Under the pieces are notes generated by a model. That model was not told the DNA's origin. It was given only the letters and a program-made list of their open reading frames with translations, and did not search any database. DNA of 54,146 nt, taken from contig NZ_QJUG01000023.1 in assembly GCF_003426775.1 (NCBI RefSeq), positions 1-54,146 of the forward strand. Direction: 5' to 3'. The stretch is from Allorhizocola rhizosphaerae (GTDB lineage Bacteria; Actinomycetota; Actinomycetes; Mycobacteriales; Micromonosporaceae). A program made the position numbers and the translations under genes. Below, piece by piece: positions 3,115 to 30,114 of the stretch (positions are counted from its first letter, which is position 1; every line of letters starts with the position of its first letter).

Positions 3115-3774
3115 ATGACCTCTCGACCGGTACCGGGGGCCGTGCGGGCGGCGGCGATCGCGCTCGGTGCGCTGGCGTTCATCGGCGCGACACTGATTGT
3201 CGTTGGCGTGCTTGAGATCTTGTGGTGGCGCTCGCCCGACGCCGCCGGGCTGGCCGTGATTTTCGACCGGGTGAAGCAGACCTATGGCCTGGACCGTCCG
3301 GCGATGCTGCGCGGCGTGGGCGGTGCGGGCGTGCTGATCGCGTTTGGTGTGGTCGCGCTCGGGCTGTCCGGGCTGGCGTGGCCGATACGCGACGGCCACC
3401 AGTGGGCCAGAACGACCGCCGTGGTCGGCATGATCGGCCTCGTGGTCGTTGTCGGGGTGGACATCGGGAGTGACCTGGTCCTCGCGACCTCGCCCGCCAC
3501 ATACACGGCCGAGGTCGCGAGCTTCGATCCGCAGGGCCGTGTCGTGCGCGTTGAGGACATCCAAGCCCTGCTCTATCCGGCGTGGTATCCGTGGCTTGAA
3601 GATGTCGCGCAGGGCGCGCTGGTCCTCGTGTGCGTGTTTGCGCTCCTGGCGCTGGGCAAGGCGGCTGTCTGGAGCGAAGGCTACTTCAAGGCCGGGCCGG
3701 ACGCCCGCACCGATGACGCGTGGGGCGCCAAACTCGCGAAGATCCGTGAGGAGAACCAGCGACGTGATGCGTGA
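3115..3774 (+). CDS. Hypothetical integral membrane protein (four predicted membrane segments)
   Basis: 219 residues. I see four hydrophobic stretches: about residues 10-36, 60-85, 100-122 and 163-184. After the third there is a soluble stretch with VVRVEDIQALLYPAWYPWLE, and the C-terminus is a charged tail (KLAKIREENQRRDA) likely to be cytoplasmic. No enzyme motif is visible and I do not recognise the family. It overlaps the following GNAT gene by a few bases (stop at 3772-3774, GNAT ATG at 3767), so the two are probably co-translated. A 97-bp gap separates it from the ABC genes; it contains a weak CCCACA/TGTGGG inverted repeat at 3020-3050. Confidence 0.75.
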   Translation: MTSRPVPGAVRAAAIALGALAFIGATLIVVGVLEILWWRSPDAAGLAVIFDRVKQTYGLDRPAMLRGVGGAGVLIAFGVVALGLSGLAWPIRDGHQWARTTAVVGMIGLVVVVGVDIGSDLVLATSPATYTAEVASFDPQGRVVRVEDIQALLYPAWYPWLEDVAQGALVLVCVFALLALGKAAVWSEGYFKAGPDARTDDAWGAKLAKIREENQRRDA

Positions 3775-4636
3775 CAGGCCGGCAACACCCGACGACACTC
3801 CCGCCATCCACAAGCTGGTGTCGGCGTGCGACCCGGACTCCAGCCTCGACTCCATCGCGGCCGACCTGGCCCGCCCGGCGATCGTGCTCGCCCGTGACAC
3901 CGTCGTCGTGCATGACGACGGTGAACTGGTGGCCTGGGCGTGGGTCCACATGGGCCGCCGGGCTCAGGTCAACGTGCATCCCGACTATCGCGGCCGGGGC
4001 ATCGGCACGCGCCTTCTGGCCTGGGCGGAGGCCCGCTCGCTTGAGCTCGGCAGCTCACGGCTGGGCCAAAACGTGCCCGACAGTCGGACCGATGCGGCGA
4101 AGCTCTTGCGCGCCAACGGATACGAGCCGAAGGCGACCGCCTGGCTGCTGGAGATCGCGATGGAGCGCGAGCCGGAGGTCCCGGCGCTCGACGGCATCAC
4201 GGTGCGCTCCTTCCGCGACGGCGATGGCCTCGCGGCGTACCAGATGATGGAAAAGGCTTTTAACGAATGGCAGCAACGCCCTCACGAATACGGGGAGTGG
4301 GCGCAGCAGACGATCGAGCGGGAGACGTTCGTGCCGGAACTGTCCCCGCTGGCGTTCGCCGGGGAGCGGCTCGTGGGTGCTGTGCTGTCGCTGGATGTTT
4401 TTGCGCAGGGGTACGTCGAACGCGTCGCGGTGGACCGAGAGTTCCGCAATCGTGGCATCGCACGGGGATTGTTGCTGGAGGCGTTTCGTGGCTTCTACCG
4501 GCAGGGCCGCCGCGCGTGTCGTTTGTGGACACACTCGGACACGGGTGCGCTGTCACTCTATGAGCGCGTCGGCATGTCGGTCGTGCGCAGCTCGACGCAC
4601 TTCAGCAAGCCCCTGCAGCACGATCATCGCGGCTAG
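3767..4636 (+). CDS. Tandem-domain GNAT acetyltransferase
   Basis: 289 residues with two GNAT folds in one chain, as in mycothiol synthase and related actinobacterial enzymes. Each half carries an acetyl-CoA-binding motif A: VHPDYRGRGIGTRLL (about residues 68-82) and VAVDREFRNRGIARGLLL (about residues 222-239). The C-terminal half ends with a WTHSDTGALSLYERVGM segment typical of GNAT motif B. The start could be GTG 3764 or ATG 3767, both inside the preceding gene. It lacks enough recognisable sequence for me to call it MshD, and the neighbours give no thiol-metabolism context. The last 84 bases overlap the convergent membrane-protein gene at 4553-6187. Confidence 0.85.
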   Translation: MRDRPATPDDTPAIHKLVSACDPDSSLDSIAADLARPAIVLARDTVVVHDDGELVAWAWVHMGRRAQVNVHPDYRGRGIGTRLLAWAEARSLELGSSRLGQNVPDSRTDAAKLLRANGYEPKATAWLLEIAMEREPEVPALDGITVRSFRDGDGLAAYQMMEKAFNEWQQRPHEYGEWAQQTIERETFVPELSPLAFAGERLVGAVLSLDVFAQGYVERVAVDREFRNRGIARGLLLEAFRGFYRQGRRACRLWTHSDTGALSLYERVGMSVVRSSTHFSKPLQHDHRG

Positions 4637-27545: not shown

Positions 27546-27760
27546 CCGACTCTGGCCGTTGCTTCGCCGGCTTGTGCGCGGCGGCTGACATCCGGCGGCG
27601 GCACACTTGCCCGGCGGCTGCGCTGGCGTGCCGATTTGCGGTTCCTCCCAGCCGCAGCGAACTGCGGGCCGAGATGGTGTGCCAGCCGTTTGCCCCCGGC
27701 TGCCTGGAGCTCCGGGGGCGATCAACGGAAAAGGAGGTGGCGGGGGCTGCGGGGAGGTCA
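27546..27760. other. Intergenic stretch before the tRNA-like gene
   Basis: 215 bases with no convincing ORF. Several GCCGGC/GCGGCGG-rich inverted segments near 27570-27630 could fold as a terminator for the ATPase gene, but there is no U tract. An AAAAGGAGGTGG purine block at about 27729-27740 looks like a ribosome binding site without a following start in a usable ORF. Confidence 0.3.
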
Positions 27761-27766
27761 TAGAGT
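27761..27766 (+). promoter_or_regulatory. Candidate -10 box of the tRNA-like gene / orphan operon
   Basis: TAGAGT lies 16 bases ahead of the first acceptor-stem base (27783), so a transcript would begin about nine bases before the mature tRNA-like 5' end, a normal spacing for a tRNA promoter. No strong -35 is visible. Confidence 0.4.
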
Positions 27767-27782
27767 CTGCCGGGAAATTCCA

Positions 27783-27856
27783 CAGCGTGTAGCTCAAAAA
27801 GTTGGAGCGCCGGGCTCGGGACCCGGAGGGTGCGGGTGCGAGGCCTGCCACGCTGG
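27783..27856 (+). tRNA. tRNA(Pro)-like cloverleaf, anticodon CGG, with altered elbow and discriminator
   Basis: The 74 bases fold as a complete tRNA. The acceptor is CAGCGTG/CACGCTG (7 perfect pairs) and the D stem GCTC/GAGC (4). The anticodon stem is CCGGG/CCCGG (5) around the 7-base loop CTCGGGA, giving anticodon CGG. The variable loop has 5 bases, and the T stem GCGGG/CCTGC (5, one G-U) surrounds the loop TGCGAGG. U8, A14, U33, G37, T54, C56, A58 and G53-C61 are all in place, and C1-G72 is the pair typical of bacterial tRNA(Pro). Unusual: the D loop AAAAAGTTG lacks the G18-G19 pair, position 55 is G instead of T, and the discriminator is G rather than A. CCA is not encoded (CGA follows). 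The orphan gene's ATG begins two bases after the discriminator. It could be a divergent tRNA, a decaying one, or a tRNA mimic controlling the downstream gene. Confidence 0.75.
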
Positions 27857-27858
27857 CG

Positions 27859-30114
27859 ATGAGCACTGAGAGCACCCATGAGACTGGCCAGGCCTATGCC
27901 GCCGGGCAGCTTGCGGCCGCCCTGATCACGGCGGCCACGCACACGGATGAACTGACCCGGCAGCGTGCCGGGCAAAGGGTGCGCCGCTGGCAAGCCGTGC
28001 TGGACGGAATGGCCGACGGCATGCTCAATGTCGGCTCGCGCACCGCGGTCGCCGGACTCCCGGTGTGGGTCACGCCCGAGGTGGTGCACGGTGGGTTCGC
28101 GACAGGTGAGGCCGCGGCCGGTGGCCCGCTGCGCGAGCACGAGCTGGCGGTCATCGCGCGGGCCGGGCTGCAGCAGCACAGCCGTGGTGCGCTGTTCGCC
28201 TACTACCTGTCCGAGCCGGGCGTGGCCGAGCTGGCCGCGCTGCTGGATTCCGGGGGCTACCGGATTGACGTGCCCGAGGAGGCGGCGCTGCTGACGGTCG
28301 CGTGGCTGCTGCGCACCGGAGACCACCGCGCTGCCGCGGATCTCGTCGACACGCTGCTCCCGTTTGCCGACCGGCTGCGCTTTTGGCCGGTGCCGGCCGA
28401 CGCACCGCCCGGCGACCCGGAAATCGTGTGGCGGGAGACCGCACAGCAGGCGGCCACGGCCCTGGCCAACAGGCGCCCGAACGCCGTGATCGAGGCCATG
28501 CGTGAGGCGCTGACCGTGTGGAATCCGTTCGCCGACAAGCTGTTGGCCCTGTGGTGCGAGACCACTGACGCCGACGGAAGGGTGGGCGCGCAGATTCCGC
28601 ACGGCTGGCCGGACCGAGCCGGCGCACTGCTTGCCACCTATCGGCGGCTCGCCGCAGAGCACACGCGGTGTTCCAAGCATCGCAAGCCAAAGGAAAACCT
28701 AGGCATATTGTGTACCGCGCTGGAGCGACGCGTCGCCGACGGCGCGCTGACCCCAAGGGTCGCGGGCCTGCTGCAGCACGCCGTCGACTCCATGCTCCGC
28801 CGACGCGGAACCGTCGGATCCCCGCAACACCAAGCTTTGCGCGCCCAGCAGGCCGCCGATGCCGCGCGCCCCACACACCACGCGTTCGCGGGGCTCGTCG
28901 CCGGGCGTTTGTCATCGTTGCCGCCGCAGACGGGCATCGCCGACGTCGCGGGAGTGCTGTGCGCGGTGCAGCCGGGCGAGGCCGTGCACACCGGTCTGCC
29001 GCAGGATGCCGTGATCCCGCAGCCGATCCAGCGGGTGGTGCGCCGAGCGCGGGCGGGCACGCCGGAGGAGCTCATCGGCGATGGCGTGATCTGCTCGGCC
29101 GAGGTGCTGGCCATGCTCACCCCGCAGGTCACCGCCGCGTCAGTGGTGTTCGGCTATCGAGACGCGGCCCTGCAAAGGCTTGCGGCAGCGCACTATCGGG
29201 CGTTTCGCAACCGGCGCTCGCTGCTCCTGCTCAACCTCGAACACCAGGTGCGCATCCACGAGCTCCCATGGGCCGGGGCGATGGACAGGCATCGCACGGT
29301 GACCGCTGCTGCGCAGCAGCAGGCCGCGCGGGCCCTGCGGCGCCTGGGCGGGATCGTGCTCAACGGGTTTCCCGCGACGGTACTGCCAAATCCAATGATC
29401 ACGGAGCTGGCGGCGCTGAGCAGGCAGGCGGGTGTCGACGTTCCATGGGTGGAGGAGCTGGCGGCGGACATCTTCATGGGCACGTTCTCGGCCAAGTTCC
29501 TGGAGGCTGCGAAGATCGCCGCCGAGTTGCTGCGCGGCACGTTCTACGAACGGTATTACGGCATCGACTACGCGGCGGTCGCGGCGATCAACGACGACGG
29601 CCGCAAGCGGCGGCGCATCGTGCGCACGTCGTCAACGTTCGATCTAATGTGCCAAGACCGGGCGGGAGGCTGGGGCAGCGGGCGGTATTCGGTGGCCGCC
29701 AACGGGATGGTCATCGAGCAGGCGCAGATCCTCACGACGCACAACCTGGCGACCCTGGCCGGGCGCTTGGGCGCCGGCCCGGCCGAAAGCTGGGAGGAGC
29801 TTGCGCGTCGGTGCCTGGATTGGACGCTACGGCTGGCGACACGCATCGAAAACAACGCGCGGCCGCTGCGTTCCGTGAAAGATTTGGCTTATGCCTGGCG
29901 GCACATGGTGTTTTATCTGTCGCTGGTTGCCCCGGCCGCCCAGCGGCGCTTCATTGGGGAGGCGCAGCGGGCCGGGGTCGGCCGTCTGCTTCCGGCACTG
30001 CGCGGTCTGGAGCACGTCGCCGGCGGTGGATCATTTGACGACTCGGGCTCGGCCGGCGATGCCCGGCGCCTGGTCGGGTGGACCGTCGGCCGACATTGGA
30101 TCTTGGCTGGCTAG
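27859..30114 (+). CDS. 751-residue orphan protein directly downstream of the tRNA-like RNA
   Basis: No signal peptide or membrane segment; the protein is largely helical and Ala/Arg-rich. The start ATG 27859 is chosen because the only in-frame alternatives lie inside the tRNA-like structure (TTG 27802 in its D loop). Blocks that look conserved by composition are CSKHRKPKENLGIL (about residue 273), FNRGTF-like AELLRGTFYERYYGIDYAAV (about 555-574), then TSSTFDLMCQDRAGGWGSG (about 594) and EQAQILTTHNLATLAGRL (about 625). I do not recognise a catalytic motif or domain. GGAGGG at 27825-27830 is too far (about 29 bases) to serve the ATG. The next gene, an enoyl-CoA hydratase, has its own promoter, so the orphan forms a unit with the tRNA-like RNA alone. 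Confidence 0.8.
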   Translation: MSTESTHETGQAYAAGQLAAALITAATHTDELTRQRAGQRVRRWQAVLDGMADGMLNVGSRTAVAGLPVWVTPEVVHGGFATGEAAAGGPLREHELAVIARAGLQQHSRGALFAYYLSEPGVAELAALLDSGGYRIDVPEEAALLTVAWLLRTGDHRAAADLVDTLLPFADRLRFWPVPADAPPGDPEIVWRETAQQAATALANRRPNAVIEAMREALTVWNPFADKLLALWCETTDADGRVGAQIPHGWPDRAGALLATYRRLAAEHTRCSKHRKPKENLGILCTALERRVADGALTPRVAGLLQHAVDSMLRRRGTVGSPQHQALRAQQAADAARPTHHAFAGLVAGRLSSLPPQTGIADVAGVLCAVQPGEAVHTGLPQDAVIPQPIQRVVRRARAGTPEELIGDGVICSAEVLAMLTPQVTAASVVFGYRDAALQRLAAAHYRAFRNRRSLLLLNLEHQVRIHELPWAGAMDRHRTVTAAAQQQAARALRRLGGIVLNGFPATVLPNPMITELAALSRQAGVDVPWVEELAADIFMGTFSAKFLEAAKIAAELLRGTFYERYYGIDYAAVAAINDDGRKRRRIVRTSSTFDLMCQDRAGGWGSGRYSVAANGMVIEQAQILTTHNLATLAGRLGAGPAESWEELARRCLDWTLRLATRIENNARPLRSVKDLAYAWRHMVFYLSLVAPAAQRRFIGEAQRAGVGRLLPALRGLEHVAGGGSFDDSGSAGDARRLVGWTVGRHWILAG

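Follow-up and report, generated by a model that had tools for sequence, protein, structure and literature searches.

The tRNA-like RNA at positions 27,783 to 27,856 (plus strand) of a contig of Allorhizocola rhizosphaerae belongs to a conserved RNA-protein pair, in which a constant RNA body carries an exchangeable anticodon, and is distinct from the decoding tRNA-Pro of the same genome. The window, i.e. the whole stretch of DNA that was analyzed, comprises 54,146 nt (NZ_QJUG01000023.1, assembly GCF_003426775.1, positions 1 to 54,146, forward strand). An RNA that is counted as a tRNA by annotation tools is here half of a recurrent RNA-protein unit, and some actinobacterial tRNA annotations are mimics, e.g. 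the 'tRNA-SeC (TCA)' reported by ARAGORN at these loci. Searches of open-access literature, judged by titles and opening parts of abstracts, gave no description of the pair.

The tRNA-like RNA and its loci

The single tRNA detected by ARAGORN in the whole window is a tRNA-Pro(CGG) at 27,783-27,857, and the Rfam model RF00005 matches 27,783-27,856 with 52.8 bits against a cut-off of 29, as expected of a tRNA fold. The discriminator G (27,856) is followed by C and G and then by the ATG of an ORF for an orphan helical protein of 751 amino acids (27,859-30,114, plus strand), which was characterized through its homologues and an AlphaFold2 model. The original prediction of a complete cloverleaf ending two bases before this ATG was borne out by ARAGORN, Rfam and the ORF coordinates, and C1-G72, G55, G73 and the anticodon CGG are all as claimed. 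The stems had been called perfect, which does not hold for the T stem, where one pair is G-U. The D loop (27,796-27,804) had been said to lack G18-G19; alignment with relatives confirmed the absence of G18, which is replaced by A18, and placed G19 where it is expected. The anticodon loop (27,815-27,821) reads CTCGGGA, and its positions 34-37 (27,817-27,820) are hypervariable when the loops of the family are compared. In the T loop (27,837-27,843, TGCGAGG), the family alignment shows G55 replacing U55 and C56 retained. From the canonical elbow, G18-G19 with U55-C56, the window RNA thus departs at A18 and G55 and keeps G19 and C56. Recognition by prolyl-tRNA synthetase uses A73 as the discriminator; the window RNA has G73. 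When this RNA is folded alone, the acceptor and D stems form in the minimum-energy structure but the anticodon and T stems do not, and the assignment of the cloverleaf rests on family covariation and the Rfam score instead of single-sequence folding.

Among the 46 tRNA matches of the genome, the window RNA has the second lowest bit score. Directly above it ranks an RNA with 53.1 bits and the anticodon TCG, found two bases upstream of the ORF for the one further copy of the protein that the genome encodes; this copy is 68% identical to the window protein. Ordinary tRNA-Pro genes with the anticodons CGG, TGG and GGG are present elsewhere in the same genome.

A scan of the GTDB species genomes with two motifs gave 362 stretches encoding relatives of the protein. 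The best 80 of these were fetched for inspection of the loci, and their titles name Streptomyces, Micromonospora, Actinomadura, Embleya and other actinobacteria. The protein is present in 4 of 61 genomes of a sample of relatives, in 4 of 396 genomes of the phylum and in 19 of 298 genomes of the order (own genome counted each time, broken copies also counted in the order), in 1 of 66 genomes of the class of G283, and in six plasmid records, which add Curtobacterium. It had no match among phage records or viral contigs, and one exact pattern of the main RNA type had 0 matches in viral contigs.

An upstream tRNA-like RNA, in one to four copies, was found in 105 of 106 distinct homologous loci, the sole exception being L056, whose protein start is truncated. 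Loci L001-L085 have it in 84 of 85 cases, and the nine loci from the phylum survey and the plasmids in 9 of 9. Before removal of duplicates the count was 107 of 108, i.e. 93 of 94 plus 14 of 14 from the order survey; the two duplicates (L177, identical to L007, and L088, identical to L055) are still inside the 107-locus, anticodon, loop and type counts and inside the analyses of protein differences and flanking ORFs. Repeats of the source genome's own two loci (L086, L090, L176, L195) were not counted. Three broken copies lie outside the 106 loci, namely L193 (RNA partly left), L194 and that of G453 (L099, RNA present), while the broken or frame-split loci L192, L183 and L074 lie inside. Three chance folds, low-scoring folds and copies under 19 points were left out of the counts; L013 and L056 were left out of the analyses of loop versus protein identity, protein differences, trees and close pairs, and loop statistics refer to loops of 7 nt only.

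Broken or fragmentary copies of the protein were seen at G453:C62, G721:C1, G756:C1, G559:C1 and G596:C3. The RNA is intact in G453 and G756 although the protein is broken, and in G721 only a remainder of the RNA accompanies the broken protein. In L189 and L190 (G552, G613), repetitive sequence lies between two matched parts of the protein just before position 1500. L032 carries four tandem RNAs at 3640-3950, three of them identical, and its third RNA is followed by a copy of the first codons of the ORF, as if the array had grown via tandem duplication.

One account of the window RNA would be an ordinary decoding tRNA-Pro that lies by chance beside an unrelated gene, in line with the tRNA calls of ARAGORN and Rfam. 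It was rejected, and is given practically no credence, as the homologues refute it by carrying the RNA at nearly every distinct locus, as A18, G55 and G73 set the RNA apart, and as the genome has separate, ordinary tRNA-Pro genes. A remnant of an integration site was likewise rejected, on the constant body and the fixed spacing. The conserved adjacency and the compensatory stem changes across homologues, which were the check proposed at the outset, support the predicted non-decoding tRNA mimic paired with the protein.

RNA body and anticodon loop

In an alignment of 76 sequences, 99.9% of the 1,596 stem cells are paired, 12 of the 21 stem pairs have changes on both sides, and the covariation score was reached by none of 500 shuffles. 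All 21 stem pairs are standard in 137 of 141 RNA copies, and C1-G72 occurs in 141 of 141. Two types were distinguished. The main type, to which the window RNA belongs, has A18 and G55 in 122 of 122 copies and keeps G19 and C56. The minor type comprises 19 copies from ten loci, namely L004, L089 and eight from the order survey; G18 and U55 are present in 18 of the copies, the remaining one being unassigned. In nine of the ten loci a pair of RNAs is present, which carry different anticodons and lie at a greater distance from the ORF. A covariance model run on 101 close genomes found seven RNAs with at least 75 bits, all adjoining the protein or, in G453, its remnant; the next five loci read (L102-L106) are ordinary tRNA-Val(TAC) genes in genomes without the protein. 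The RNA body is 88-90% identical where the proteins are 45-65% identical, and 67% identical in the most distant pairs. Below 65% protein identity, the loops are no more alike than expected at random.

The anticodon takes 31 forms across the family, so that the 'Pro' identity of the window RNA is incidental. The entropies of loop positions 34-37 are 1.58, 1.74, 1.63 and 1.26 bits (116 loops, including the three chance folds dropped later), and the flanking C32 and U33 are found in 134 of 134 and 133 of 134 seven-nucleotide loops, respectively. Placed on the tree of 82 proteins, the anticodon nearest the ORF, with 21 states, requires a minimum of 49 changes, compared with 20 for the acceptor, 14 for the 5' T stem and 5 for the 5' anticodon stem. 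In 20 disjoint pairs with proteins at least 80% identical, the anticodon differs in 10; differences per site are 0.220 at positions 34-38, 0.018 in stems and 0.050 at other single-stranded positions, i.e. an approximately 12-fold higher rate in the loop than in the stems of close relatives. At 85% protein identity, 3 of 11 pairs differ in anticodon, with 0.091, 0.013 and 0.030 differences per site in the same order. Two anticodon bases are the only difference between the RNAs of L058 and L082. In L198 and L199, whose proteins are 94% identical over 267 residues, both loops have switched, CCA-A to CTG-G and GTG-G to GGT-A, with nt 37 changing too. More than one RNA copy is present in 27 of 107 loci, and in 24 of these 27 the loops are all different.

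Single loops with unusual features were also noted. At L008 (3464-3760), two identical upstream RNAs have a 6-nt anticodon loop (CTTTCT) and the copy at the ORF a 7-nt loop. The anticodon TCA occurs in six mimics (L025, L039, L044, L049, L062, L065); it would read the stop codon UGA and is the one that receives the tRNA-SeC label.

The loops were compared with cellular tRNAs of the same anticodon, using an incomplete panel of 44 tRNAs from the own genome and 57 from loci of one other genome. A joint match at nucleotides 37 and 38 is seen in 53 of 106 loops (25.2 expected from permutation, p=2e-4), and for unique loops the figure is 16 of 41 (8.7 expected, p=2e-4); kinship is allowed for in these permutation tests through the unique loops only. 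Position 37 alone matches in 78 of 106 loops (p=2e-4) and 26 of 41 unique loops (p=0.003), while the agreement at nt 38 alone is weak (p=0.018 for all loops, 0.11 for unique loops). By this agreement, the loops imitate cellular anticodon loops. The imitation is imperfect: G37 follows A36 in 23 of 33 loops and U37 follows C36 in 10 of 20, at positions where the tRNAs of this genome have A37. A35 is scarce, at 3 of 134 loops versus 13 of 44 cellular tRNAs (p=9e-7), and likewise when each loop is counted once (3 of 50, p=0.005), so that the family makes almost no use of anticodons for Val, Leu, Ile, Met and Phe. For TCG, TCA, CGA, AGG, ATG and GGA, no counterpart was present among the cellular tRNAs of this incomplete panel. 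Neutral drift of the loop was rejected on the rule for nt 37/38, the retention of C32 and U33, and a rate of change above that of other single-stranded positions.

A fixed scaffold with a short variable stretch would also suit a guide ribonucleoprotein, in which the 4-5 nt of the loop would bring the protein by base pairing to a codon, to another anticodon or to a site on an mRNA. Reasoning from the tRNA panel, complementary anticodons exist in the cells even where the same anticodon is absent. Such a guide would be very short, however, and pairing alone does not demand that nt 37/38 follow cellular loops. Some loops, moreover, have U37, which is ill suited to decoding, and the guide is considered rather improbable.

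Possible expression signals, neighbours and the orphan protein

A possible -10 box of a shared promoter, TAGAGT, lies at 27,761-27,766 (plus strand) and starts at -22 from the RNA. It is proposed from the statistics of family loci: in 89 of 107, a TANNNT motif begins between -24 and -12 relative to the first RNA (mode -16/-15), compared with 4, 5 and 17 loci for three intervals of the same width further upstream. A strict sigma-70 scan gave no promoter in 27,550-27,900, and a strict promoter and terminator scan of the window gave 0 sites. In many loci, a stretch resembling GAAA-N-CCGTTTGT was seen by eye to recur approximately 38-50 nt before the RNA; it may be a -35 element or the binding site of a regulator.

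In 81 of the 85 loci L001-L085, the start codon is found 2-4 nt past the acceptor stem, i.e. 1-3 nt after the discriminator. The four exceptions are L056 (truncated start, no RNA), L074 (with the RNA and an unclear N-terminal frame), L013 (with an RNA that has one mispair, left out of the spacing measurement) and L004 (minor-type RNA, 26 nt from the ORF). In main-type loci the start codon follows the cloverleaf too closely for a ribosome-binding site to fit in between, which makes a leaderless message after 3' processing likely.

The RNA could then be no more than a leader that serves the processing or regulation of the mRNA, for instance by giving the leaderless message, with a loop that is free to vary. 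Such a leader would account for the near-constant spacing of the start codon and for the likely -10 box just upstream. It would not account for tandem copies with different loops, for the retained C32/U33 and the nt 37/38 rule, for loops that differ at 0.220 per site when other single-stranded positions differ at 0.050, or for the greater distance of the minor type from the ORF, and it is judged quite improbable.

In the window, the locus lies near genes for an ABC-transporter ATPase and an enoyl-CoA hydratase. Across the family, no flanking gene family is shared by more than 9 of 80 loci. In 114 of the 148 nearest-neighbour ORFs (34 were left out), the commonest Pfam families are housekeeping ones, with 2-oxoacid dehydrogenase acyltransferase in 9. 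The flanking ORFs matched 65 PADLOC models; as raw counts uncorrected for background, mad2 was matched by four members among the 25 models shown, and type I restriction specificity and methylase models by two members.

The window protein has no match in Pfam, NCBIfam or PADLOC, and PDB sequences gave no match at E 10; one PHROG of unknown function matches at E 0.15. A Pfam scan of 60 members gave ten weak families, with McpB_HAMP in 4 of 60 (best 2.6e-4) and the TROVE domain not among the matches; the weak matches of single members and McpB_HAMP were judged spurious. The AlphaFold2 model is confident and mostly helical (pLDDT 88.8, pTM 0.83; C-terminal half 89.7 and 0.90), with the conserved stretches 58-62, 454-462 and 536-538 in low-confidence loops. 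For the whole model and the C-terminal half, the best Foldseek E values are 0.19 (DSR2, probability 0.07) and 0.87, and the best VIA-align Z scores are 6.8 over 48 residues and 6.5 over 62. None of these exceeds the background of the tool for helical proteins, no catalytic or sensor fold was recognized in these searches, and Ro60 is absent from the listed PDB fold matches, all of them weak. The protein is accordingly an orphan, as had been proposed, with no convincing family, PDB-sequence or fold match.

Among protein pairs at least 75% identical, the 61 with the same loop and the 165 with different loops have their differences distributed similarly along the protein. The ratio of difference shares over full 25-residue segments ranges from 0.83 to 1.47, the highest value falling in 526-550, which is conserved and has few differences, and no stretch stands out as tracking the loop. 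Single columns, among them 255, 249, 15 and 402, are raised for association with the anticodon, but are confounded by descent. The even spread of differences points to a protein that does not recognize the anticodon.

The layout of the locus resembles that of a type III-like toxin-antitoxin system. The protein would then be the toxin, with tRNA as a possible target, and would be blocked by the upstream RNA, an antitoxin that mimics its substrate. One to four RNA copies directly upstream on the same strand, a patchy distribution, plasmids and broken copies fit this arrangement. A protein of approximately 750 amino acids without a toxin family match does not, nor does it fit that protein differences fail to track the anticodon, yet the loop looks selected and not drifting. 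The RNA also outlives the protein in the broken loci G453 and G756, although in G721, where the protein is broken, it is partly lost. The toxin-antitoxin explanation is regarded as unlikely, and is together with the guide the main rival of the preferred reading.

Proposed function and known systems

The preferred reading, offered tentatively as possible and short of probable, is a two-part ribonucleoprotein in which the protein holds the fixed body and the loop serves as exchangeable bait for enzymes that attack anticodon loops. Transcription would probably start from one promoter near the 5' end of the tRNA-like RNA, which would be released as a tRNA-sized RNA, and the ORF a few bases on would probably be read as a leaderless mRNA. 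The large helical protein may bind the conserved body of the mimic, as the near-constant body and the lack of any protein part that changes with the anticodon would suggest. Through the exposed loop, the anticodon of a chosen tRNA would be presented to attacking enzymes, e.g. nucleases from phages, competitors or resident toxins, and bait that is bound or cut would either tie up the attacker or switch on the protein; sensing is favoured, since the protein is large and always present. Frequent loop switching would follow from attackers that change.

For the bait speak the presence of the RNA at 105 of 106 distinct loci, the constant body with its type-specific A18/G55 or G18/U55, the retained C32 and U33, the in-place switches, the imitation at nt 37/38, the tandem copies with different loops, the lack of a loop-tracking protein stretch, and patchy, sometimes broken genes that also occur on plasmids. 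Against it stand anticodons without a counterpart in the incomplete tRNA panel, imperfect nt 37, the near absence of A35, which leaves no bait for tRNAs of hydrophobic residues, mostly housekeeping flanks, no phage or viral match, and no catalytic or sensor fold. With equal reserve, the pair may represent a class of bacterial ribonucleoprotein immunity of a new kind, in which a fixed body is docked, the loop is re-coded in place to match the attacked anticodon, and tandem copies widen the range. If the bait or the guide reading is true, the tRNA fold here underlies a system programmed by RNA, whose target could be sought with the naturally occurring loop variants as a ready-made set.

Like YrlA with Rsr/Ro60, the family has a tRNA-like RNA encoded beside a large protein that would bind RNA. 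Unlike Rsr/Ro60, none of 60 members of the orphan family has TROVE by Pfam. The family RNA also differs from YrlA in being a whole cloverleaf with a switching anticodon, and we know of no such anticodon variation in Y RNAs. As precedents for the bait, PMC7790460 contains the suggestion that the tRNA-like domain of YrlA may inhibit an anticodon nuclease, and PMC10264068 discusses anticodon nucleases that recognize the loop sequence and the escape of phage tRNAs through mutations in the loop.

Like type III systems (ToxIN and kin; AbiF with its RNA), the family has RNA copies, single or tandem, directly upstream of one protein gene. RNA repeats in this position define the type III layout, and 1-4 copies occur here, with more than one in 27 of 107 loci. 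The known type III toxins are small endoribonucleases, and the 751-aa protein, with no Pfam, NCBIfam or PADLOC match, is unlike the ToxN, CptN and TenpN types. The family RNA is a cloverleaf, while type III RNAs are, to our knowledge, not tRNA-like.

Phage tRNA sets and actinobacterial tRNA array units are thought to counter tRNA-cleaving defences, according to PMC10264068 and PMC12803027, and the present RNAs may share that role of countering tRNA cleavage. Phage encoding, which marks the phage sets, is not seen here among phage records or viral contigs. As far as is known, phage tRNA sets and tRNA arrays consist of decoding tRNAs, each with its own body, whereas here one body bears every anticodon, beside one protein family.
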